A stretch of 64,000 nucleotides of DNA from Streptomyces sp. DG2A-72 (GTDB lineage: Bacteria > Actinomycetota > Actinomycetes > Streptomycetales > Streptomycetaceae). The notes beneath the pieces were generated by a model. The model saw nothing but the letters and a program-made list of their open reading frames with translations, did not search any database and was not told the origin of the DNA. Of this stretch, positions 43,393-54,334 are shown in pieces (the first letter of the stretch is position 1; each line of letters starts with the position of its first letter). The stretch is taken from NCBI RefSeq assembly GCF_030499575.1, contig NZ_JASTLC010000001.1, forward strand, positions 3,310,001-3,374,000, given 5' to 3'. The position numbers and the translations under genes were made by a program.

Positions 43393-43452
43393 CGCTTCAC
43401 GAAGAGCTCACACGCTTCATGAAGATCTGACACGCTTCGTGAAGAGCTGCAC
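43393..43452. repeat. Three 20-bp direct repeats, each with palindrome CTTCNNGAAG
   Basis: Units at 43393-43412, 43413-43432 and 43433-43452 read CGCTTC-NN-GAAGA(G/T)CT with variable ends; the central pairs are AC, AT and GT. Two exact 20-bp steps place each palindrome on about the same DNA face. They end about 50 bases before the RibD-like start, and the opposite gene starts at 43257. The array looks like a cluster of operators for an unidentified regulator. Confidence 0.75.
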
Positions 43453-43504
43453 CAGCGAAGCTCGATCAGCAGTCGTGATCAGCAGACGGAAGGGAGCACC
43501 AGCC

Positions 43505-44152
43505 ATGTCGCTCGCCCGCGTCCACAACTTCTCCATCTCCCTCGACGGCTTCGGCACCGGTGACGGTCAGAGCCATGACGCACCGTTCGGCCACGCCGGC
43601 GAAAGGCTGCACGAGTGGATGTTCACCACCGGGTTCTGGCACAACATGACCGGCCGTCCCGGCGGGACCCGCGGCCTCGACGACGCCTTCGCGCGGCAGT
43701 TCGAGCCCGGCATCGGCGCCGAGATCATGGGCGCCGGCAAGTTCGGCTACCCCGGATGGCACGAGGACCCGGACTGGAAGGGATGGTGGGGGCCCAACCC
43801 GCCGTTCCACACACCGACGTTCATCCTCACCCATCACACGCGCCCGCCGATCGAGATGGAGGGCGGCACGACCTTCCACTTCCTCGACACCTCGCCCGCC
43901 AAGGCGCTCGAGACGGCCCGCGAGGCCGCGGGCGGCCAGGACGTACGCATCGGCGGCGGACCCACCGTGATCCGCGACTTCCTCGCCGCCGGCCTCATCG
44001 ACCACATGCACGTCGTGGTGACCCCGATCCTGCTCGGCCGAGGCGTCCGCCTCTGGGACGGACTGGAGGCCACCGAGCAGGACTACAACATCGAGGCCGC
44101 TTCCTCGCCCAGCGGAGTCACGCACGTGACCTTCACCCGCGCGGGCCTCTGA
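43505..44152 (+). CDS. Dihydrofolate reductase family protein (RibD C-terminal domain)
   Basis: A 215-residue RibD_C/DHFR-fold protein. FSISLDGFGTG at the N-terminus, PTFILTHHTRPPIEMEGGTTF in the middle and the IGGGPTVIRDFLAAGLIDHMHVVVTPILLGRGVRLW block at the C-terminus are standard for the family, which includes many NADPH-dependent reductases of unknown substrate. GAAGGGAG precedes the ATG at 43505. Three palindromic repeats upstream suggest specific regulation. The end of this gene is 33 bases from the displaced 3' end of the radical SAM gene. Confidence 0.9.
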   Translation: MSLARVHNFSISLDGFGTGDGQSHDAPFGHAGERLHEWMFTTGFWHNMTGRPGGTRGLDDAFARQFEPGIGAEIMGAGKFGYPGWHEDPDWKGWWGPNPPFHTPTFILTHHTRPPIEMEGGTTFHFLDTSPAKALETAREAAGGQDVRIGGGPTVIRDFLAAGLIDHMHVVVTPILLGRGVRLWDGLEATEQDYNIEAASSPSGVTHVTFTRAGL

Positions 44153-44185: not shown

Positions 44186-44278
44186 TCAGTGAGCGTGACC
44201 GCTGGTCGCGGAGTTCTTGACCGTCAGCGGGAGCAACTTCTTCCCCGTAGGCCCGATTTGAATGGACGTGTCCATCTG
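44186..44278 (-). pseudogene. Displaced native 3' end of the TIGR03960 radical SAM gene
   Basis: Thirty codons and a stop read QMDTSIQIGPTGKKLLPLTV then KNSATSGHAH. The intact radical SAM gene at 52284 ends GKKLLPLTVKKDAPTSGHAH after QMDTWPQVSNS. The fragment has no start and begins exactly at the left junction core. The phrase QMDTxIQIGPTGKKLLPLTV is what I recall from uninterrupted Streptomyces homologues, so this is the original 3' end, cut off by integration. Confidence 0.85.
44271..44278. other. Left attachment-site core of the integrated element
   Basis: TCCATCTG is shared with the right junction at 52372-52379. To the left is host sequence (the severed gene end); to the right the serine integrase gene starts within 45 bases. 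The core encodes the QMD codons of the target gene. Confidence 0.7.
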
Positions 44279-44308
44279 GGCCATATACCAACGGGGTTAA
44301 ATCCACAC

Positions 44309-44314
44309 TACCGT
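44309..44314 (+). promoter_or_regulatory. Possible -10 box of a leaderless integrase transcript
   Basis: TACCGT fits TAnnnT and ends seven bases before the integrase ATG, which has no Shine-Dalgarno sequence. No -35 is recognised. Confidence 0.3.
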
Positions 44315-44321
44315 CGTTGAC

Positions 44322-45941
44322 ATGGGAAAACGAACGAGGACTAGGGCAGCAACTGATCGGCAGCAGTACGCCGTTGAGGCCGAGTGGAGCGAAGCGGATC
44401 TTGCACTTCTAGAGGAACTGAAGAGAGCGGACGCCCTCTTACCCGACGACGCCCCAAGGGCCCTGTTGTCCGTGCGCCTGTCCGTCCTCACCGACGACAC
44501 GACATCACCGGTCCGGCAAGAGCTTGATCTCAGGATCCTCGCCAGGGAGCGCGGCTATCGAGTCGTCGGTGTCGCCAGCGACCTCAACGTGTCGGCGACG
44601 AAGGTGCCCCCGTGGAGGCGCAAGGAGCTCGGGGACTGGCTGAACAACCGGGCGCCAGAGTTCGACGTACTGCTCTTCTGGAAGCTGGACCGTTTCGTAC
44701 GACGGCTCACAGACCTGAGCACCATGATCGACTGGTGCCTGAAGTACGGGAAAAACCTGGTCTCCAAGAACGACTCGATCGACCTGACCACGACGGCCGG
44801 AAAGATCATGGTCACGATCGTCGGCGGCATTGCCGAGATCGAAGCGGCCAACACGAGTACGCGCGTCGCGAGCCTCTGGGACTACACCAAGACACAGAGC
44901 AACTGGCTTGTGGGCAAGCCAGCGTTCGGCTACGAGACGGCGGTGGACGAGAACGGGAAGGTGGTTCTCGTGATCAACCGCAACGCGTACAAGGCACTGC
45001 ACTGGTGCCGGAACGCAGCGCTGAGGGCGAACGGTGCGTCCGCCCGGCGCATGGCCAAGGTCCTCGTCCGATCCGGGCTCTGCGGTCCCGGGCTGACGGC
45101 GACGACCCTGCTCCGGCGCCTCCGAAACCCGGCGCTCATGGGGTACCGCGTAGAGGAGGACAAGAACGGAGGCGTCCGCCGTTCGAAGATCGTTCTGGGC
45201 AACGACGGAAAGCCCATCCGCGTTGCCGATGGCATCTTCACCGAGGATGAGTTCCACAGCCTCCAAGCCGTACTGGATCAAAACGGGAAGGATCAACCGA
45301 CCCGAAACCCGGAGGGGGCAACGAAGTTCCTCGGGGTTCTGATCTGCCATGACTGCGGCACCAACATGACGGTGCAGAACACCCGCACCGAAGGTCGGTT
45401 GTACTCCTACCTGCGATGCGGCAAGTGCAAGAGCGGAGGCCAGGGCGCGCCGAACCCCGAGGCGATCTACAGCAAGCTTGTCGACGACGTCCTGAGGGTT
45501 CTGGGCGACGAGCCCGTCATGACCCGCGAGTACCGGCAGGGGGCCGAGGCCCGCAAGGAACAGAAGCGCCTCGAAGAGTCCGTCAGCTACTACATGACCG
45601 GCCTGGAGCCGGGAGGCCGCTTCACGAAGACCCGGTTCACCAAGGAGCAGGCCGAGAAGACGCTGGACGACCTCATCAAGCAGTTGGAGGCCATCGACCC
45701 CGAGTCGACCAAGGACCGGTGGATCGCGGTACACAACGGCAAGTCGTTCCGCGCCCAGTGGGAGGAAGGCGGCATGGAAGCCATGGCCGCCGATCTACTC
45801 CGGGTCGGCGTGCAGTGCAAGATCAAGCGGACGAAGGTGAAGGGCGTACGCGCTCCGCACATCCACATGAAGCTCATGATCCCCAAGGACGTGCGGGACC
45901 GCCTGGTACTCAAGGAAGACGACTTCGCGCAGGTCTTCTGA
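44322..45941 (+). CDS. Large serine recombinase (integrase)
   Basis: A 539-residue serine integrase. The resolvase domain carries SVRLSVLTDDTTSPVRQ with the catalytic serine at residue 54, and WKLDRFVRR. The recombinase domain follows (about 190-290), with GKPAFGYE and LRNPALMGYRV. A zinc ribbon CHDCG...CGKCKSG at about 347-370 and a coiled-coil region at about 410-470 complete the family layout. Enzymes of this type join short, non-identical attP and attB sites. It sits directly at the left junction and is complete, so it may still be active. ATG at 44322. Confidence 0.95.
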   Translation: MGKRTRTRAATDRQQYAVEAEWSEADLALLEELKRADALLPDDAPRALLSVRLSVLTDDTTSPVRQELDLRILARERGYRVVGVASDLNVSATKVPPWRRKELGDWLNNRAPEFDVLLFWKLDRFVRRLTDLSTMIDWCLKYGKNLVSKNDSIDLTTTAGKIMVTIVGGIAEIEAANTSTRVASLWDYTKTQSNWLVGKPAFGYETAVDENGKVVLVINRNAYKALHWCRNAALRANGASARRMAKVLVRSGLCGPGLTATTLLRRLRNPALMGYRVEEDKNGGVRRSKIVLGNDGKPIRVADGIFTEDEFHSLQAVLDQNGKDQPTRNPEGATKFLGVLICHDCGTNMTVQNTRTEGRLYSYLRCGKCKSGGQGAPNPEAIYSKLVDDVLRVLGDEPVMTREYRQGAEARKEQKRLEESVSYYMTGLEPGGRFTKTRFTKEQAEKTLDDLIKQLEAIDPESTKDRWIAVHNGKSFRAQWEEGGMEAMAADLLRVGVQCKIKRTKVKGVRAPHIHMKLMIPKDVRDRLVLKEDDFAQVF

Positions 45942-45999
45942 CCCCGACTCTGCCACCACACGACGCGACCGCCTTCCCGAGTCACGTGAAGTTGCTTGC

Positions 46000-46485
46000 T
46001 CAGGGCCGGAGCAGGCTGGAGCCCGAGTCGGGTGGCACGACGGCGGCAAGCGCCGCATAGTCCTCAAGAATCCGCAGCAGATGAGGTATCGGGACCAGCT
46101 CGCGTTCGCGCCGCACGAACGGGCCGATCGCCTCCCACGTGCGGACGATCCTGTTGTTGAGCGTCATCAAGTAGCGGTCGTCGATGATGCCCAACCGCTT
46201 GAGCACTACGAAGTTGTGGAGGAAGAAGGCCACGTCATAGATGGCCTCCTGAGCCTCCGTAGGCAGGCCGGAGATGCCGAGATCAGGATCGTGATCGGCT
46301 CCGAGCCGATGAATGACGTACCGATGGTGTTGATGAAACTTCGCTGACCGGAAGTCATCGAGCAACGCCACGTACGCAGGAAGGTAGTTGGCGCGCTTCA
46401 TGGACGACACCTGCTGGAAGGCGAAGTAGCTCGAACTCAGCAGTGCCAGTACTGACAGGCTGATCGCCACGATATTGAGAATCAT
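46000..46485 (-). CDS. Membrane-anchored hypothetical protein (DUF4760-like)
   Basis: A 161-residue protein with one N-terminal membrane helix (MILNIVAISLSVLALLSSSYFAF). A helical soluble region follows, including AIYDVAFFLHNFVVLKRLGIIDDRYLMTLNNRIVRTW. The pattern of helices and the LGIIDD phrase resemble DUF4760 proteins. AAGGGATGG before the ATG at 46485 supports the start; a longer reading to 46620 is not supported. Function unknown; it is carried by the integrated element. Confidence 0.65.
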   Translation of the reverse strand: MILNIVAISLSVLALLSSSYFAFQQVSSMKRANYLPAYVALLDDFRSAKFHQHHRYVIHRLGADHDPDLGISGLPTEAQEAIYDVAFFLHNFVVLKRLGIIDDRYLMTLNNRIVRTWEAIGPFVRRERELVPIPHLLRILEDYAALAAVVPPDSGSSLLRP

Positions 46486-46654
46486 CCGATTCCATCCCTT
46501 CGCCCAGAAACCTCCGCACCGGATAGACAGAGCTGGTGGGACCCCGGTTCCCAAGCACGGGTACCAGTCACCGCAGGCCAGCCTCTTCCTGGCCTTCACA
46601 AGCATCACCTGCACCCCCATCGGCTACCACCGACTCGCTAAATATGATTACTTG

Positions 46655-46822
46655 TTATTCGAACCAGGACGCTGGATCGAACGGCTCTTCCGTGCCGTCG
46701 TCATCAACGATCACTATTTCGCTTTCGATCAGACTCGAAGCCCTGTCGTCGCCAGCCCGGGGCAGCGCCGAGCGCCGAAGCTGCTGGGGTTCAACGTCGG
46801 GTAGTGGAGTTATCGGCCCCAC
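46655..46822 (-). CDS. Small acidic ORF overlapping the rep gene end
   Basis: A 55-residue frame begins with GTG at 46822, 13 bases before the rep stop, and ends IVIVDDDGTEEPFDPASWFE. AGAAGGGGA lies just upstream. In actinomycete integrative plasmids a small gene often overlaps the end of rep (for example xis), but this one shows no helix-turn-helix. It may be a remnant. Confidence 0.35.
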   Translation of the reverse strand: MGPITPLPDVEPQQLRRSALPRAGDDRASSLIESEIVIVDDDGTEEPFDPASWFE

Positions 46823-48170
46823 TCCCCTTCTTGTCTCACCTCCGCGCAGAGCCGCCTGGACACTGAGAGGTCTTCGGCGATTCCGGCTGCGATGAGTGCG
46901 GCGCCGGGGGTGTGGCCGGAGCCGACGTAGCGCCAGTGCCGATCGGTGACGGTCTCGGGGATGTCGGCGTGGCCGAGGTGGTGGGCGCGTTCGACGCGCA
47001 GTGCCTCGTATGTCGTGGAGTAGGCGCGGGACTTGGTGAGGATGTGGCCGCGGTAGCCGATGGTGTGGGCCCAGGTGCGCAGGTGTAGGGGTGTGTATTC
47101 GGAGAGTGCGCCGAGGCGCCAGCAGGTACGCATCAGGGTGCGAACATGTTCGCTTACGGATGCCGCGTCGACGTCGTCCCAGGTGGTGACCCTGTGGTCG
47201 ATGCCGGCGCCTGTCTCACTCGCTCCCTTGGTGACGTACTTGGCCACGTACGCGGCCACGACGTCATCATCCGGCCCGCCGCTATCGGGGCGCAGCGGAC
47301 GGGCGTCGATCTGGGCTCCCCATCGCAGCACCAGCTCACCCACGGCAGGGCTTTAGGGCGTGTGGATCAGGACCCGCCGGGCGGATCTACGTACGGCATC
47401 GGTGAGCAGTTGCGCAGTGCCCCAGGCCGGGGGCTCGTCGTCGGGTCCGCTCGGGCCGTCGAGGCGGATGATCGCGTGGACGTGGACAGCGGCGCGTTTC
47501 TGGTACTCGGCGACGCGGGCGAAGGACAGCCGGGCGTGCCGGGCGAAGTGGGACTGTACAAGGCCGACCGAGGAGGCGATGCGCCGCCGGACGTCGATGA
47601 CGAATCGGTCCCACAGCTTGGAGGCGTGCGCGTGCCACAGCACGTGGGCGGTGTAGTCGTAGCAGTCGGGGCAGAGCGGTTGGCCGACAACCAGCGCATC
47701 TGGGGCGTGGACGTCGCCGCAGCCAAGGGAGCGTCCGTGTTCACAGACGCCGCCATCGCGGCGGGGACGACATACTCCCCGGCACGGTGGACCGGGCCGA
47801 AGGACGGGGCAGTCAGGGTGACGAAGAGCCGGGGCCGGTGCCGGACCGTCGCGGGGACATTCTTGCCGCCGAGGAGGCCCGCGCGGACGAGGTGGAAGGT
47901 GTCGCCTGCGTGGAAGCGGGAGCAGGCCGGGCACACGGTTGCGCGTCGGTTGCGGCAGCGGACGAGGAGGCGTTCGCCGGGTTCGTCGCGAGTGTCGTAG
48001 TGGCGGAGGATCTCGCCGGTTGTGCCGTCCAGGGTGGTGGTCGAGCCGGAGAGGTGGACGGGGTGGGAGCAGCCGCCGGTTGCGGTGATCTGCTCCAGCC
48101 AGCGCGGAAAGTTTGGGTCTTGGGCGATGCGGATGGCGTCGCGGTCTGCTTCGGGGAGCTGACCCGACGT
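46810..48170 (-). pseudogene. Broken RepSA-type replication initiator
   Basis: Read through three segments, the region encodes a plasmid replication initiator. Segment one reads QITATGGCSHPVHLSG, CPACSRFHAGDTFHLVRAGLLGG and FVTLTAPSFGPVHRA. Segment two reads CRPRRDGG, CPDCYDYTAHVLWHAHASKLWDRF and EYQKRAAVHVHAIIRLDG. Segment three reads ELVLRWGAQIDA, AYVAKYVTKGA, RTLMRTCWRLG and YRGHILTKSR. A one-base shift near 47775 separates the first two. A TAA at 47353, where relatives have Tyr in PYSP, separates the second and third. No start codon is found for the first. AICE replication by this protein is lost. Confidence 0.85.
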
Positions 48171-48236
48171 GCACCGGACACGACCTCGACCGTACCGACC
48201 GAAGCGCGGAGCGTGTCCACCCCACCAGCGGAGGGG

Positions 48237-48992
48237 TCAGGACCCGGAGCAGCCCTCAGCCTTCATGGCCTTGTCGTGTGATCCATCATCGGAAACGTCC
48301 ATAAAGGACACACTCACTTCCTCACCTGCCTTAAGAAGAGAGGCACCGCCGGTGTAGTCATCGTTCGCAAATTGCCCTGGTAATCGCACCCACTTAATTC
48401 CATAGGCGTCGACGAAGCTCAGAGCGGTAACCCTTAGGCCATTCTGGATGTATTCCTGATCGGCAACGTCCCACAAGCCTCTGTTCTCTTCACGCGACGC
48501 CCATTCCCACGCGAGACGTATGGGGATCTCAAGTCGCGCACAAGGAAGCACCACCTGCCGGTACGTCGAGATGCGTTCCGTGAAGTCAAAATGCCTATTC
48601 GTGATCAAAGAAAACTCCACACGGACACCATATATTGGGTCGAGCGATCGGTTCAGGATGGCTACTTTCCCTCTCTTTTCATCCCCCTCGGTCCAGAAAG
48701 AAATCATTGCCGCTTGCCTGCGCTCTTCACGGTTCTGCTGATCTCGCGATTGCTCCAACTGATCGTCAGCCACTCGGGCACCATAATAGGTACTCCATGC
48801 AGTAAAAGCGAGCCCTAGAGCAGCGACTGCGGTTGTAACTAGGGTGGCTGCCTTTACCCAACTGTCGCCGCCGTTCTCAGCCCTTCGATCGCTGATTTTA
48901 TTGCTTCCCCGAGCACGCCTGAGGGACGCCGAGGAAAGCACACTTACATGAGAAGGACGTCGAAAGCGGCGAGATAATTGCCGTGTTCTCAT
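48237..48992 (-). CDS. Membrane-anchored hypothetical protein
   Basis: A 251-residue protein with a basic N-terminus and one membrane helix (about 46-66, AATLVTTAVAALGLAFTAW). A Gln/Glu/Arg-rich coiled coil (about 72-92, DQLEQSRDQQNREERRQ) and a beta-rich domain follow. ATG at 48992 with GAGGGAG close upstream. I recognise no family. The topology (anchor, coiled coil, soluble domain) resembles other accessory proteins on this element. Lower GC and AT-ending codons suggest recent acquisition. Confidence 0.6.
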   Translation of the reverse strand: MRTRQLSRRFRRPSHVSVLSSASLRRARGSNKISDRRAENGGDSWVKAATLVTTAVAALGLAFTAWSTYYGARVADDQLEQSRDQQNREERRQAAMISFWTEGDEKRGKVAILNRSLDPIYGVRVEFSLITNRHFDFTERISTYRQVVLPCARLEIPIRLAWEWASREENRGLWDVADQEYIQNGLRVTALSFVDAYGIKWVRLPGQFANDDYTGGASLLKAGEEVSVSFMDVSDDGSHDKAMKAEGCSGS

Positions 48993-49021
48993 TTCTCCCT
49001 CAATCGGCGAACAAGCCTTGT

Positions 49022-49885
49022 CTACTCGGCTGCGGCTGGATCATAGAAGCGCCCTCGATCTCGTGTGGGTAGGTCGGGGCGCCACTTCCACCACGGTCGA
49101 CCGTACCGAAGACAAAGATCACGATGAAGTCGAATCCTCGTGATCCATCGCAAAGACTTTGGAGCGGCGTACTGGACATACAGCGGTGTAGCCATGATCA
49201 GGCGGGAAGTCCATTCGCCATTCGGGAGATTGAAATTTACCCGTGCCAGCCCTTGCACCCTCGCACGCTGCAAAGGGGAGTGGTGCTTCTGGGCGATGCG
49301 GAAAACGTCTCTTGCTATCTGTTCGGGCCGATTGATCCTCGGCACAGAAAGCGCCCGCTGCGTCAGTTCCTCTGGGATTCCAGCCGCACCGACGTCATCC
49401 TGCTCATCGATTTTGAGGATGAGGTTGTGTAGCCACCTTGTACCGGAGCCCAGACGGCCAACTGTAGCGGTCCGCTCTAATAGATGCTCAGTTGCACCGC
49501 ACAGCATGAGATCAACCGTGGCAGGGCCGCCCGTGCGATCACCCGGCAGGGATCCGCAGAACAAGAGCACGTCGTCGAGGTCCGGCAAGGCGCTGTCTTC
49601 GTGCGACGTCCCCCAGCCCATTTCCAAATCGAAGTAGACCCAGTCGCCAGTCTTCAGATCTGGTGCGTAGAAGTGCGAAGCCTCCCGCTCCAGGTGCTGC
49701 CGCACCTTTCGAAGCCGTCGCACTTCTACCTCGGTTGGAGTGAGGGGAGCACCGGGACCGATCCCTATCGTTGCCACCTGAAGATCAACTTCGACGTTCC
49801 AAGAGGGCGACATGCCCGGAGTTCGTTCCGGAAAGAAAGCATCGAGTCGTCGACGAGAGAAGTAGATCATCTCGCTGAAGCGCAC
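49022..49885 (-). CDS. Hypothetical protein resembling the SAVMC3_10250 family
   Basis: A 287-residue soluble protein. The opening MRFSEMIYFSRRRLDAFFPE, the middle DWVYFDLEMGWG and LFCGSLPGD, and the later MATPLYVQYAAP resemble a Streptomyces family that I recall under the name SAVMC3_10250. The biochemical function is unknown. GTG at 49885 follows AGGGGG. It lies between two other unknown cargo genes on the same strand with clear gaps, so it may be transcribed separately. Confidence 0.6.
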   Translation of the reverse strand: MRFSEMIYFSRRRLDAFFPERTPGMSPSWNVEVDLQVATIGIGPGAPLTPTEVEVRRLRKVRQHLEREASHFYAPDLKTGDWVYFDLEMGWGTSHEDSALPDLDDVLLFCGSLPGDRTGGPATVDLMLCGATEHLLERTATVGRLGSGTRWLHNLILKIDEQDDVGAAGIPEELTQRALSVPRINRPEQIARDVFRIAQKHHSPLQRARVQGLARVNFNLPNGEWTSRLIMATPLYVQYAAPKSLRWITRIRLHRDLCLRYGRPWWKWRPDLPTRDRGRFYDPAAAE

Positions 49886-50007
49886 ACTGCCCCCTGCCTC
49901 TGCACATTGACTTCATGGCACAGGGAACATTGAAGCACTGCACCTACGTGAGTGCTTGTAGGGGGTGAGCCGACTCACTACTCACTCGCGGTCAACACAC
50001 GGCCAAC

Positions 50008-50032
50008 CAGAGCCATCCCGCATGGCTCTGGC
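50008..50032 (-). terminator. Terminator of the VanZ-domain gene
   Basis: A perfect 10-bp stem (CCAGAGCCAT, loop CCCGC, complement) lies 56 bases past the VanZ-domain gene stop on the minus strand. The remaining 49886-50088 holds a short sequence resembling the 3' end of the small ORF at 52097. Confidence 0.65.
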
Positions 50033-50088
50033 GCCGTTGCTGACCTCAGACCACTCCACATCGGAATGGATCGGTTGTGAGTTCAAGC

Positions 50089-51351
50089 TCAGTAGTCAGT
50101 AACAGTCACGCGTGCACCAGTCGCGGCGTCGATGGCAATGTCCTCTTTGCCGCTGCCGATGAGCCAGACCGGGCGCCACTCGCCCTTTACCTGTTGGGCG
50201 AGGAGCAGACCCTTATCGGCTGGCAGGCCAGTCACGTTGCGCACGAGGGCTCTGGCCTCGGCCTCGTCGATCTTTACCCGTTCAAGCGACGGGTCGTCGA
50301 CAGTCTTGGCCACGAAGCCGATGACACGTCCTGTCGTAGTGATCGTGAGGTCAAGGCGCATGGGCATCATGACCCCATCCTTGGTATATCGCCGGTAAAC
50401 CACGGCGTAAGCACGCGTTGGCCCGTCACCGAGAGTGCGGATTCGCTGTTTGCTTCCTACTACGTCCTTCGGGAACCACTTGCGGGCGAAATCATCAGCA
50501 GCCGCCGCTACTTGCTTTTCGCTGAGGTTTCCTTCATCGCCACGTGTATTCGAAGACCACGCGCGCTCCAAATCCTTCTGGGGCCACCAGCCAGAAATCG
50601 ACCCATGATTTGTCTCAGCGGTGATCTTAAGACGGTTCCCGTCCTTCTCTGTGGCGGTCTCGCGGGTCTGGGTATCAGCACCGAAGATTCCCTTGGCGGC
50701 CCCGGTGATCCACTCATCGGCTTGAATGGCCGCCTCCGCGCGGTCGTGCCGCTGATCGTCCTTGGCAACAACATCGACTGACTGAATCCGAGATTGGAAG
50801 AACCCCACAAGAGCGATCGTGCCGACTACTGCAAGCAACGATCCCCAGAGCAGGTCACGGACGGGACGGCCCAGTTGTTGCCGCCGCCAATACAGCCAGA
50901 GGGTCCCCATTACCGAACCCAATATGGCTCCTGTCGCATTTGCTGCGATGTCTGTCACGCTGCACGAACGGCCCAGGTTTGCCACGGACTGAACAAGCTC
51001 AATGGTTGCACTCAGGGACGTGAACACCGCAGCAACTGTGACTGGCCGCTTGTACAGCACGACAGCGAGCAGCGCACCCGGCGTGAAAAGAGCGACGTTC
51101 AGCAGGGAGCTCGCGGACGTGAACAGGTGGATGGGCGCGCCGGTGTCACATTGGTTCGATTCCAAGCCGGCATTGCCGGACAGGAGGGTGACTGCCAGAA
51201 TGCCAGCGATATAGACGGCGAGAACCACCGGCAGTGGCCATGGGTTGTCTCTGGCCTTGGCCACAAGAGCCGTCGGCACCGCGACAATAGCGGCGAGAAC
51301 CAGGAAGGTAACAATCAGGCCTGGCACCGCAGCGATAGATGCTTCAATCAC
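50089..51351 (-). CDS. VanZ-domain membrane protein with extracytoplasmic domain
   Basis: A 420-residue protein. Residues 1-165 contain four or five helices with the VanZ pattern (NVALFTPGALLAVVLYKR; LSATIELVQS; RSCSVTDIAANATGAILGSVMG). A further helix (about 170-188) leads to a roughly 230-residue outer domain. Its end, SLERVKIDEAEARALVRNVTG then IAIDAATGARVTV, resembles PepSY-like repeats. VanZ proteins can confer low-level teicoplanin resistance, but many have other roles. GTG at 51351, AAGG upstream. It is the largest cargo gene of the element and lies downstream of the secreted cysteine protein. Confidence 0.8.
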   Translation of the reverse strand: MIEASIAAVPGLIVTFLVLAAIVAVPTALVAKARDNPWPLPVVLAVYIAGILAVTLLSGNAGLESNQCDTGAPIHLFTSASSLLNVALFTPGALLAVVLYKRPVTVAAVFTSLSATIELVQSVANLGRSCSVTDIAANATGAILGSVMGTLWLYWRRQQLGRPVRDLLWGSLLAVVGTIALVGFFQSRIQSVDVVAKDDQRHDRAEAAIQADEWITGAAKGIFGADTQTRETATEKDGNRLKITAETNHGSISGWWPQKDLERAWSSNTRGDEGNLSEKQVAAAADDFARKWFPKDVVGSKQRIRTLGDGPTRAYAVVYRRYTKDGVMMPMRLDLTITTTGRVIGFVAKTVDDPSLERVKIDEAEARALVRNVTGLPADKGLLLAQQVKGEWRPVWLIGSGKEDIAIDAATGARVTVTDY

Positions 51352-51373
51352 AAGAGGACCTTCACAGCAGGAG

Positions 51374-51399
51374 GCCGGGGCGCTGACCTGCGCCCCGGC
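51374..51399 (-). terminator. Terminator of the secreted-protein gene
   Basis: GCCGGGGCGC-TGACCT-GCGCCCCGGC, a perfect 10-bp stem, lies 12 bases past the secreted protein stop and 23 bases before the VanZ-domain start on the minus strand. Confidence 0.8.
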
Positions 51400-51410
51400 T
51401 GCTGCGGAAT

Positions 51411-51803
51411 CTAACAGACGTCCACGTTCGGGGTGTAGTAGTTGCCGGTACTGGCCTTCATGTACCCGGCAATGTCACAGGATTCCGTGTCGGACTTCCT
51501 CTTTCCGCCCCAGCTGTGCGAGAGCGTCTGGCCCGAGGATATGGACTTCTGAGTGTCCAGGAAGAGCGAGTTCCCGTCGTCCATGGCCAGCTGAATCGTT
51601 ACCTTGTTGCCCCCGGTCTTCTTGTACGTCGTGGAGGAGTAATACAGGGTGCAGTTGCCGCTCACCTGACAGCCGTCACTCGCGGAGACGCTCAGAGTCC
51701 CGTTCGATAGCGCCGTGCTCTTCGTACCGAAGGCGAACGCACTCGTTCCTGTCATCACGAGCGCACTCGTCATGGCAGCGACGACCAACTTCTTACGCAA
51801 CAT
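51411..51803 (-). CDS. Small secreted four-cysteine protein
   Basis: A 130-residue precursor with a Sec signal peptide (MLRKKLVVAAMTSALVMTG, cleavage near AFA at 23-25). The mature protein of about 105 residues is Ser/Thr/Gly/Asp-rich, with cysteines at 45, 51, 109 and 130 (the last residue), probably two disulfides. I know no family. The ATG at 51803 has GGGGGA at proper spacing; the ATG at 51807 is too close to it. It precedes the VanZ-domain gene but is separated by a strong terminator. Confidence 0.75.
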   Translation of the reverse strand: MLRKKLVVAAMTSALVMTGTSAFAFGTKSTALSNGTLSVSASDGCQVSGNCTLYYSSTTYKKTGGNKVTIQLAMDDGNSLFLDTQKSISSGQTLSHSWGGKRKSDTESCDIAGYMKASTGNYYTPNVDVC

Positions 51804-51977
51804 GGCCATTCCCCCTCTTAGTCAAGGTTGACCTGCGTTAGTCACAAGATCAACAACCCAGGGAAGGCCAGAGGCTGTGGACTACAAAAGCCAGATCCGG
51901 CGGAATTTTGACTCAAAGCGATCTCGCAGGATGGCTTGATCGACTTCACATGAGGTTCCCCGGTCGAGATCCAGACG

Positions 51978-52013
51978 GAGGCTGGACCCTGCAAGGTCAA
52001 ACGCTCCAGCCTC
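51978..52013. other. Hairpin in the non-coding stretch 51804-52096
   Basis: GAGGCTGGA (51978-51986) pairs with TCCAGCCTC (52005-52013), 9 bp. It may terminate the small ORF at 52097. I see nothing else in 51804-52096 apart from the presumed promoter of the secreted-protein gene. Confidence 0.4.
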
Positions 52014-52096
52014 GTCCCTGATCTGCGACTCAGAACAGGCCGAACTGCCCCTGAGTCACAGAGGCTACGAACAGCCGCCTGAAGGGCGTCGGACTA

Positions 52097-52312
52097 TCAG
52101 ACCCACTCCACCTCTGAATGGATGCTCGGAACGCCTACAGAAGACGGCAGCGGGGTTCTGGGCGTGTCTCGTACAGAGCCCCGCCGCCGCACCTGAGCGC
52201 CGAGGGCCTTCAGTACGGCAGCTGCTTCTTCCTCGCTGCTGTCCGCCAAGACGTCGACGATGCGCCGCAACGCCTCACTCACGTCAGTGAGCGTGTCCGC
52301 TGGTCGGAGCAT
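52097..52312 (-). CDS. Small ORF at the right end of the element
   Basis: A frame of up to 71 codons overlaps the end of the radical SAM gene. A GTG at 52282, just after that gene's TGA (52284-52286), would give 61 residues (SEALRRIVDVLADSSEEEAAAVLKALGAQVRRR, then a Pro/Ser tail). The helical, acidic-then-basic sequence could be a real small protein. No ribosome-binding site is evident. The 3' end resembles a stretch at 50045-50072. Confidence 0.35.
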   Translation of the reverse strand: MLRPADTLTDVSEALRRIVDVLADSSEEEAAAVLKALGAQVRRRGSVRDTPRTPLPSSVGVPSIHSEVEWV

Positions 52313-54254
52313 CCTTCTTGACCGTCAGCGGCAGCAACTTCTTCCCGCTGTTACTTACTTGTGGCCAAGTATCCATCTGCGGACACACCCCGCAATCGAA
52401 GCACGGCGTCCACCGGCAGTCCTCGACCTCCGTCTCGTCGAGGGCGTCCTGCCAGTCCTCCCAGAGCCAGTCCTTGTCCAACCCCGAATCCAGGTGGTCC
52501 CAGGGGAGGACTTCCTCGTAGCTGCGTTCGCGGGTGGTGTACCAGTCGACGTCGACGCCGAAGGGGGCCAGCGCCTTGTCGGCGGACTGCATCCAGCGGT
52601 CGTAGGAGAAGTGTTCGCGCCAGCCGTCGAAGCGGCCGCCGTCCTCGTAGACCGCGCGGATGACGGCGCCGATGCGGCGGTCGCCCCGCGAGAGCAGGCC
52701 TTCGACGATGCCCGGCTTGCCGTCGTGGTAGCGGAAGCCGATCGAGCGGCCGTACTTCTTGTCGCCGCGGATCTTGTCGCGGAGCTTCTCGAGGCGGGCG
52801 TCCGTCTCCTCGGCGGAGAGCTGGGGGGCCCATTGGAAGGGGGTGTGGGGCTTGGGGACGAAGCCGCCGATCGAGACCGTGCAGCGGATGTCGTTGGACT
52901 TCGACACCTCGCGGCCCTTCTGGATCACGTTCATCGCCATGTCGGCGATCTGGAGGACGTCGTCGTCCGTCTCCGTCGGCAGGCCGCACATGAAGTACAG
53001 CTTCACCTGGCGCCAGCCGTTGCCGTACGCCGTCGCCACCGTCCGGATGAGGTCATCCTCGGACACCATCTTGTTGATGACCTTGCGCAGGCGCTCCGAG
53101 CCGCCCTCCGGCGCGAAGGTCAGGCCCGAGCGCCGGCCGTTCCTCGTCAGCTCGTTCGCCAGGTCCACGTTGAAGGCGTCGACACGCGTCGACGGGAGGG
53201 ACAAGCCGATCTTGTCCTCCTCGTAGCGGTCCGCGAGCCCCTTCGCGATGTCGCCGATCTCCGAGTGGTCCGCCGAGGACAGGGACAGCAAGCCCACTTC
53301 CTCGAAGCCCGTCGCCTTCAGGCCCTTGTCGACCATCTCGCCGATGCCCGTGATGGAACGCTCACGGACCGGGCGGGTGATCATGCCCGCCTGGCAGAAG
53401 CGGCAGCCGCGGGTGCAGCCGCGGAAGATCTCGACGGACATCCGCTCATGGACCGTTTCCGCCAGCGGCACCAGCGGCTGCTTGGGGTACGGCCACTCGT
53501 CCAGGTCCATCACCGTGTGCTTGGACACACGCCACGGGACACCCGACTTGTTGGGGACGACGCGGGCGATGCGGCCGTCCGGGAGGTACTCGACGTCGTA
53601 GAACGCCGGGATGTACACCCCGCCCGTCTTCGCGAGGCGGAACAGGACCTCCTCCCGGCCGCCGGGACGCCCCTGCGCCTTCCACTCGCGGATGATCCGC
53701 GTCATGTCGAGCACGGCCTGCTCGCCGTCGCCGATGATCGCCGCGTCGATGAAGTCGGCGATCGGCTCGGGGTTGAAGGCGGCGTGGCCGCCGGCCAGGA
53801 CGATCGGGTCGTCCGGTCCACGGTCCTTCGACTCCAGCGGGATGCCCGCCAGGTCCAGCGCCGTCAGCATGTTCGTGTAGCCGAGCTCCGTGGAGAAGGA
53901 GAGCCCGAAGACATCGAACGCGCGCACCGGCCGGTGGCTGTCCACCGTGAACTGCGGGACGTCGTGCTCCCGCATCAGCGCCTCCAGGTCCGGCCAGACG
54001 CTGTAGGTGCGCTCGGCGAGGACGCCCTGCTGTTCGTTCAGGACCTCGTAGAGGATCATGACGCCCTGGTTGGGCAGCCCGACCTCGTACGCGTCCGGGT
54101 ACATCAGGGCCCAGCGGACGTCGCACGACTCCCACGGCTTGACCGTGGAGTTGAGCTCTCCGCCGACGTACTGGATCGGCTTCTGCACATGCGGGAGCAG
54201 AGCTTCGAGCTGCGGGAACACGGATTCTGCGGCCGCAGCGACTTCGGAGGGCAT
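52284..54254 (-). CDS. TIGR03960 family B12-binding radical SAM protein, C-terminus replaced by the element
   Basis: A 656-residue enzyme with an N-terminal cobalamin-binding-like domain (ALMYPDAYEVGLPNQGVMILYE) and the radical SAM cluster motif CTRGCRFCQ at about 279-287. PEGGSERLRKVINK and a C-terminal EDCRWTPCFDCGVCPQMD follow. The natural partner is TIGR03936 (40388-41155). The target reaction is unknown. After QMDT the sequence reads WPQVSNSGKKLLPLTVKKDAPTSGHAH, encoded by the integrated element; the native end is at 44186-44278. The ATG at 54254 (GAAGG upstream) is preferred over 54299. Confidence 0.92.
   Translation of the reverse strand: MPSEVAAAAESVFPQLEALLPHVQKPIQYVGGELNSTVKPWESCDVRWALMYPDAYEVGLPNQGVMILYEVLNEQQGVLAERTYSVWPDLEALMREHDVPQFTVDSHRPVRAFDVFGLSFSTELGYTNMLTALDLAGIPLESKDRGPDDPIVLAGGHAAFNPEPIADFIDAAIIGDGEQAVLDMTRIIREWKAQGRPGGREEVLFRLAKTGGVYIPAFYDVEYLPDGRIARVVPNKSGVPWRVSKHTVMDLDEWPYPKQPLVPLAETVHERMSVEIFRGCTRGCRFCQAGMITRPVRERSITGIGEMVDKGLKATGFEEVGLLSLSSADHSEIGDIAKGLADRYEEDKIGLSLPSTRVDAFNVDLANELTRNGRRSGLTFAPEGGSERLRKVINKMVSEDDLIRTVATAYGNGWRQVKLYFMCGLPTETDDDVLQIADMAMNVIQKGREVSKSNDIRCTVSIGGFVPKPHTPFQWAPQLSAEETDARLEKLRDKIRGDKKYGRSIGFRYHDGKPGIVEGLLSRGDRRIGAVIRAVYEDGGRFDGWREHFSYDRWMQSADKALAPFGVDVDWYTTRERSYEEVLPWDHLDSGLDKDWLWEDWQDALDETEVEDCRWTPCFDCGVCPQMDTWPQVSNSGKKLLPLTVKKDAPTSGHAH
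52372..52379. other. Right attachment-site core of the integrated element
   Basis: TCCATCTG, identical to 44271-44278. To the right lies the intact body of the radical SAM gene; to the left the element-encoded replacement 3' end (52284-52371). Confidence 0.7.
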
Positions 54255-54334
54255 CTCGCGAACCTTCGTGAGCTGGACTGTACTGACGGGGGTGGCCATC
54301 CAGCCTAACGCGGCCGACGACCTCCCCCGCCCGC

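Follow-up and report, generated by a model that had tools for sequence, protein, structure and literature searches.

A phiJoe-type serine integrase element carries an in-frame 3' end for the radical SAM gene that it occupies in Streptomyces

The element and the two gene ends

The window analyzed here, a whole stretch of 64,000 nucleotides from Streptomyces sp. DG2A-72 (genome G000 in our set, with Streptomyces as its relatives), contains an 8,102-bp element located within the 3' end of a gene for a TIGR03960 B12-binding radical SAM protein. By homology with the phage phiJoe, we placed the two crossovers at 44279-44280 and 52381-52382. The radical SAM gene (52284-54299, minus strand; 710.8 bits against a cut-off of 462.3) ends in CGVCPQMDTWPQVSNSGKKLLPLTVKKDAPTSGHAH and a stop codon. 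Its last part, at 52284-52356 on the minus strand, lies within the element and beyond the attachment site attP, and closes with SNSGKKLLPLTVKKDAPTSGHAH and the stop. At the other junction, a headless fragment at 44186-44278, also on the minus strand, reads QMDTSIQIGPTGKKLLPLTVKNSATSGHAH and a stop; it is a displaced native-type end and forms the B' half of attL. This arrangement bears out the original prediction, made from the sequence of the window, of an element that sits in a protein gene and brings its own replacement 3' end. Both tails contain GKKLLPLTVK and TSGHAH, and the stretch between these blocks differs and includes a one-codon indel, so that the original description of 19-20 shared final codons is a loose one.

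Regarding the junctions, the crossover corresponds to a 5'-GG pair beside TCCATCTG, as judged by homology with the mapped phiJoe site. The short common core and the serine integrase stand as proposed, with the crossover itself now restated as this pair. At attL the GG lies on the plus strand at 44279-44280 and is followed by the P' arm of attP, the 24-nt left end of the element (44281-44304), while at attR the dinucleotide at 52381-52382 adjoins the P arm (52357-52380, minus strand), which reads QMDTWPQ(V) in frame with the host gene. The extent of both arms is set by analogy with the annotated 50-bp attP of phiJoe.

The element encodes a 539-aa serine integrase (44322-45941, plus strand; PF00239) of the phiJoe/SCO2603 family, about 67% identical to its best phage homologues, the integrases of R4-like Streptomyces phages. 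Its start is located 77 bp from the GKK codons of the displaced tail. At the opposite end, adjoining attR and divergent from int across attP as in phiJoe/SCO2603-type elements, lies a gene for a 61-aa recombination directionality factor (RDF, or excisionase) that resembles phiJoe gp52 (52097-52282, minus strand, GTG start; 27% identity, E 0.002 in a one-to-one comparison). The phiJoe paper of Fogg et al. 2017 (PMC5311408) places the attB of phiJoe and of SCO2603-type elements 74 bp from the end of a SCO2606-like B12 radical SAM open reading frame (ORF), and reports that crossover takes place at 5'-GG, that attP is no longer than 50 bp and that gp52 acts as the RDF. Site and integrase family therefore agree with the tentative identification of the phiJoe attB in the original prediction.

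The B' side beside the attL crossover is short by one base. Of 41 junction rows caught by our pattern, which altered cores escaped, 39 have a spacing of 4 and the window has 3; the row from L025 is spurious. The loss falls at 44278-44281 and occurs in no other junction caught. It could be a sequencing error. If it is real, the two parts of the gene would be out of frame after excision, so that the host would depend on the copy provided by the element, with excision impaired.

Native-type and element-type ends across genomes

We collected 113 Streptomyces gene ends by similarity of the gene, most similar first and hence as a non-random sample, and all of them could be parsed. In 91 the gene body runs straight into the GKKLLPL motif through an arm of the same type as the fragment at 44186-44278, and the remaining 22 have an arm of the type carried by the element. 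From other families we fetched 20 ends and could parse 19, all of which read CGVC...I[QE]xGP[TS]G..L[LI]P, a native-type arm; 13 of them terminate at L[TS]VV and five continue into longer, unrelated tails. These counts identify the fragment at 44186-44278 as native-type and the version at 52284 as the carried one, as had been proposed, and we dropped the alternative that the fragment is unrelated to the radical SAM gene.

Adding the window, 12 ends from a set of 28 related loci and five from a set of integrase-bearing genomes gave 131 gene ends, in which one genome apparently figures twice (L009 and L043). With 36 element-type and 95 native-type arms, every one of them is in exact frame with the motif G-[KRQ]-K-[LM]-L-P-L. 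A displaced tail was found in 26 of the 28 related loci, no more than about 125 bp from the start of the integrase gene in 23 and further away in L005, L007 and L032; the other two (L029 and L031) gave none. In the second set, which overlaps the first, 21 of 25 loci showed one.

On the gene side, the phiJoe attP annotation stops 24 nt beyond the crossover. These 24 nt span QMDTWPQ and part of V in the window, so that of the difference noted originally, WPQVSNS against SIQIGPT, which is real, WPQV versus SIQI belongs to attP and SNS versus GPT lies outside. Element-type arms fall into classes: WPQ, WVQV, and an AIQI class spelled ATA CAA that encodes a native-like AIQIGPT with codons of its own. 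This last class is defined by ATACAA itself, and ATA is found at that position in 0 of 95 native-type ends. The conserved glutamine is written CAA in 17 of 17 WPQ/WVQ arms versus 14 of 95 native-type ends. We considered taking the AIQIGPT ends beside an integrase as native and rejected it, given the ATACAA arm that they have in common by definition and the absence of ATA at that codon from native-type ends.

Among integrase-bearing genomes, with the gene end in hand for 20 of 26, the element-type arm was present in 16 of 16 with an integrase identity of at least 71% and in none of the four at or below 65%, which are native-type. In G206, G261, G154 and G207 the integrase and the gene lie on different contigs.

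A further arm class, LDIQIGPT (PQLDLDIQ, PQLGLDIQ or PQMGLDIQ), was seen in the gene ends of L045, L049, L059, L062, L088, L136 and L175. It may represent the attP arm used by a divergent integrase; integrases of 65% and 55% identity occur in G065 (the genome of L175) and G207 (that of L088), respectively.

Selection on the carried tail and its contact with the RDF gene

The nine codons just beyond attP (GKKLLPLTV) gave a ratio of nonsynonymous to synonymous polymorphism (pN/pS) of 0.061 in 23 distinct element tails, a value that comes from non-independent lineages since these tails include close relatives. For comparison, the same codons gave 0.18 for the phage tails (8 distinct) and 0.084 for native-type ends (70 distinct); read in the other frames, the stretch gave 1.1 to 24. 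Given that the carried tail is constrained about as much as the host ends, it looks selected for the function of the host gene. As to the displaced tails, the frame is broken in five of 49 (45 distinct), namely in the window, L014, L017, L027 and L167; L024, flagged by the script, is a substitution and was not counted. No frame is broken in the 36 carried ends (p = 0.070, non-significant), and the contrast reaches p = 0.025 when 15 phage tails are added and p = 0.0013 against all 131 gene ends. Damage to displaced tails is underestimated here, because their detection needed an in-frame motif.

According to these results, we propose, with a probability of roughly 0.83, that the element is an integrated and decaying relative of phiJoe-type elements which re-supplies an in-frame gene end selected for the function of the host gene. 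The serine integrase would cross over at the CC/GG pair just past the CGVCP codons of the TIGR03960 gene. As attP must differ from attB, the codons of the P arm would have to differ too (SIQI to WPQV in this case), and beyond the P arm the carried stretch would keep the frame (GKKLLPLTVKKDAPTSGHAH and a stop), so that the radical SAM protein would again be made at full length once the element has inserted. Selection acting on this protein would then hold the carried stretch in frame, and the displaced native end, no longer read, would decay. The idea that the mimic evolved to keep the host gene functional thus gains support from purifying selection, and the protein made after insertion would be expected to work.

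Several observations weigh against this explanation. The WPQVSNS arm of the window replaces the nearly invariant I645, G648, P649 and T650 (the I[QE]xGP[TS]G motif is present in 118, and an LLPL-like motif in 114, of the best 120 among 8,000 homologues scored), so the carried end of the window may be inferior to the native one. The AlphaFold model, built on a 51-row alignment, is uninformative on the tail, with a mean predicted local distance difference test score (pLDDT) of 60.8 and values below 50 over residues 598-670, and a sequence search of the PDB returned no relative of the protein. Where the integrase is divergent or fragmentary (L031, L032, L172 and L175, and also G154 and G207), the arm is native-type. 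To these we add the shared ancestry of the tails behind the pN/pS values and the non-significant frame contrast for carried ends. Finally, in Mantel tests on 22 loci, the carried tail correlated with the integrase (rho 0.18, p 0.027) no better than with the host gene (rho 0.26, p 0.0025), which makes exchange of tails between elements and hosts likely.

The tail is also found in phages. The phiJoe tail peptide matched 54 phage records, all from Streptomyces, some of which represent one phage in both GenBank and RefSeq, and the tail adjoins attP in the 19 records inspected. Another search gave 54 records with an integrase at 60-80% identity, and the 30 listed are all among the tail-bearing ones. 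In each of the 15 phages retrieved for this comparison, the stop of the tail overlaps the start of a 57-62 aa RDF-like ORF by 4 nt (ATGA or GTGA); phiJoe, Lika, Brataylor and Triste likewise show a stop-start overlap, and the gene starts annotated by submitters differ in some records. In the window, 1 nt separates the carried stop from the GTG of the RDF. An intact RDF ORF follows 40 of the 131 chromosomal gene ends, and in 34 of the 40 it starts between -4 and +2 nt from the stop, taking the first start codon from -6 on. With the carried stop against its start, the RDF is, in the integrated state, the next cistron of the host gene, and it is probably translated by coupling to it. In E. coli, the phiJoe integrase gave 37.6% excision alone and 96.8% with gp52 (PMC5311408). 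Constant expression of the RDF would hence be costly, and coupling, if any, should be weak or conditional.

One could argue from this contact that the tail serves the element itself, by providing a stop codon and ribosome entry for coupled translation of the RDF, with repair of the host gene as a by-product. The constancy of the overlap in phages, the narrow range of offsets in chromosomes and a GGA motif shortly upstream of the RDF start in 14 of the 15 phages all speak for it. However, coupling alone would not keep the amino acids of GKKLLPLTV at a pN/pS of 0.06, nor does it explain an arm class that spells AIQIGPT, and we regard it as rather unlikely to account for the tail.

Quite improbable is the possibility that the mimic is a recent capture of a host end, by imprecise excision or recombination, with no maintenance by selection. 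Carried tails do resemble host tails, the Mantel test gives the element no edge over the host, and the frame contrast for carried ends alone is non-significant. On the other side, tail types differ within a single locus (L013, and L155 with L080 from the same genome), where the displaced tails read LSVVNK/LTVVNK and the carried ones SGHRH/SGHAH; phage tails have diverged (GGKMLPLTV) and are nevertheless in frame; and pN/pS is far below 1. That the mimic is a part of attP required by the integrase is hardly credible and was dropped: it directly adjoins attP but falls outside the mapped site of at most 50 bp, its variation is mostly at third codon positions, and the attL/attR reporter of the phiJoe study, which recombined, was built from short half sites lacking the mimic as we read the primer table (PMC5311408), in agreement with the initial view that recombination can do without it.

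Stacked insertions, known systems and other genes

RDF sequence (E < 0.01) follows 22 of the 91 native-type gene ends, and reverse-strand and shuffled controls gave no match at E < 0.1. A search of the same 22 genomes for integrase relatives (E <= 1e-5) placed none in the vicinity of the gene; several matches lie on other contigs and are unplaceable, and in G258 the best one is 2.3 Mb away. We read 12 loci 9-15 kb downstream, ten with native-type and two with element-type arms (G011 and G266), and a further tail appeared in six. In G225 (L213, 149-6415), four RDF copies and two headless tails accompany the gene end within 6.4 kb, and no phiJoe-type integrase is present. In G011 there are a second tail of element type, a stretch homologous to a third one, a headless tail of native type, a pair of RDFs and a truncated integrase; G033, G108 (with a broken frame), G141 and G266 have one more tail each. 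No second tail was detected over that distance in G258, G245, G170, G134, G268 and G267, where RDF sequence is present. Stacked tails indicate that, in some genomes at least, insertions followed one another and each of them overwrote the end of the gene.

Intermediate codons, GCC ATC CAA, in L034, L111 and L131 suggest that an element-type arm may revert to the native type by drift, and recombination with other strains may also bring this about. Among native-type arms, RDF sequence follows 21 of 72 long tails versus one of 19 short ones, a modest effect (p = 0.035; p = 0.051 for all arms). It was also found (E < 1e-3) after six of 47 headless tails (L006, L008 at 18047, L011, L027, L032 and L151), and after 0 of 19 outgroup ends, for which less downstream sequence was covered (102-240 bases versus about 400). 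The RDF copies after native-type ends might instead be parts of present elements with other integrases, and not relics. An intact RDF ORF at eight of the 22 ends would fit, but the lack of an integrase relative placed near the gene, with several on unplaceable contigs, and the stacked copies of G225 make this unlikely.

A bolder proposal goes further, and we put its odds, as a whole, somewhat short of even. The phage family would have wired its excision switch into a host gene, whose promoter and ribosomes would read through the re-supplied 3' end into the RDF and so tie RDF output to integration and to host expression. The C-terminus of the gene would in turn be a palimpsest, in which the long tails that TIGR03960 proteins have in many Streptomyces are remnants of past elements, and some hosts would be unable to lose the element.

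Tyrosine integrases are used by e14 of E. coli and by the pneumococcal Int2a phages. These elements also supply the 3' end of a protein gene, icd in the case of e14 (PMC6379469; PMC7600539), but a homologous att sequence covers the gene end, unlike the tiny common core of the window with the tail outside the recombination site. Prophages in Bifidobacterium dnaJ2 likewise reconstruct the end of a coding gene, with a tyrosine integrase and a 35-bp common core, and gene conversion with hosts is suggested in that account (PMC6109161). SCCmec and ECC in rlmH resemble our element in their large serine recombinases, their target in the 3' region of a conserved gene and the remnants described (PMC6222049), and differ in using CcrAB and direct repeats of about 50 nt; the integrase of the window scores far below the Ccr cut-offs, at best 40.9 bits (CcrB) against 900. 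The Int-S prophages of Mycobacterium abscessus and Bxb1 combine a serine integrase, a 5-8 bp core and a site inside ORFs, and in contrast to our element are described as disrupting them (PMC8092301).

The element matches phiJoe and SCO2603 in integrase family, attB in a SCO2606-like gene, GG crossover and the position of int and a gp52-type RDF on either side of attP. It departs from the phiJoe account (PMC5311408) in the carried 3' end and the stop-start contact: the paper remarks that an insertion so near the end of the ORF may not abolish function, we saw no mention of either feature in it, and "stop codon" and "overlap" occur 0 times in its main text. Among the titles listed by a literature search, none reported a carried gene end for this family beyond the phiJoe work. 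Hence the insertion site, and the supply of gene 3' ends by other elements, were known, and what appears new is a separate tail, in frame and placed beyond attP, together with the contact between this tail and the RDF. The asymmetry of attP and attB seems to forbid gene repair by shared sequence, and the phiJoe family sidesteps this with the tail beyond attP, which suggests a rule for finding benign insertion sites. A phiJoe-type vector trimmed to a minimal attP would change how the host protein ends, and host-driven RDF expression becomes directly testable in Streptomyces. Many Streptomyces hold leftovers of such insertions, and the host gene should keep working despite the element.

As for the other genes of the element, a RepSA replication initiator is broken into a middle part (47353-48225; PF20199 positions 122-261) and a C-terminal part (46810-47343; positions 270-438), both on the minus strand and parted by an in-frame stop; profile positions 1-121 found no match in the element ORFs scanned. 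RepSA being a pseudogene, the element may be a remnant resembling an actinomycete integrative and conjugative element (AICE), although it departs from pSAM2-like AICEs, which have an intact RepSA-type initiator, and, with a PF00239 serine recombinase and a short core, from elements with a tyrosine integrase and a long identical core. No FtsK-like transfer protein was detected in the eight larger element ORFs scanned, and a plasmid search returned only integrases below 60% identity, with coverage of the query under 80%. The cargo, on the minus strand, comprises a SAVMC3_10250 family/DUF7019 protein (49022-49885) and a VanZ-like protein (50089-51351). A small protein at 51411-51809 has, by eye, a signal-peptide-like start and a weak, sub-cut-off similarity to Phage_tube_2. 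Outside the element, a gene with a RibD_C domain (reductase-like; 43439-44152) adjoins the displaced tail on the opposite strand.

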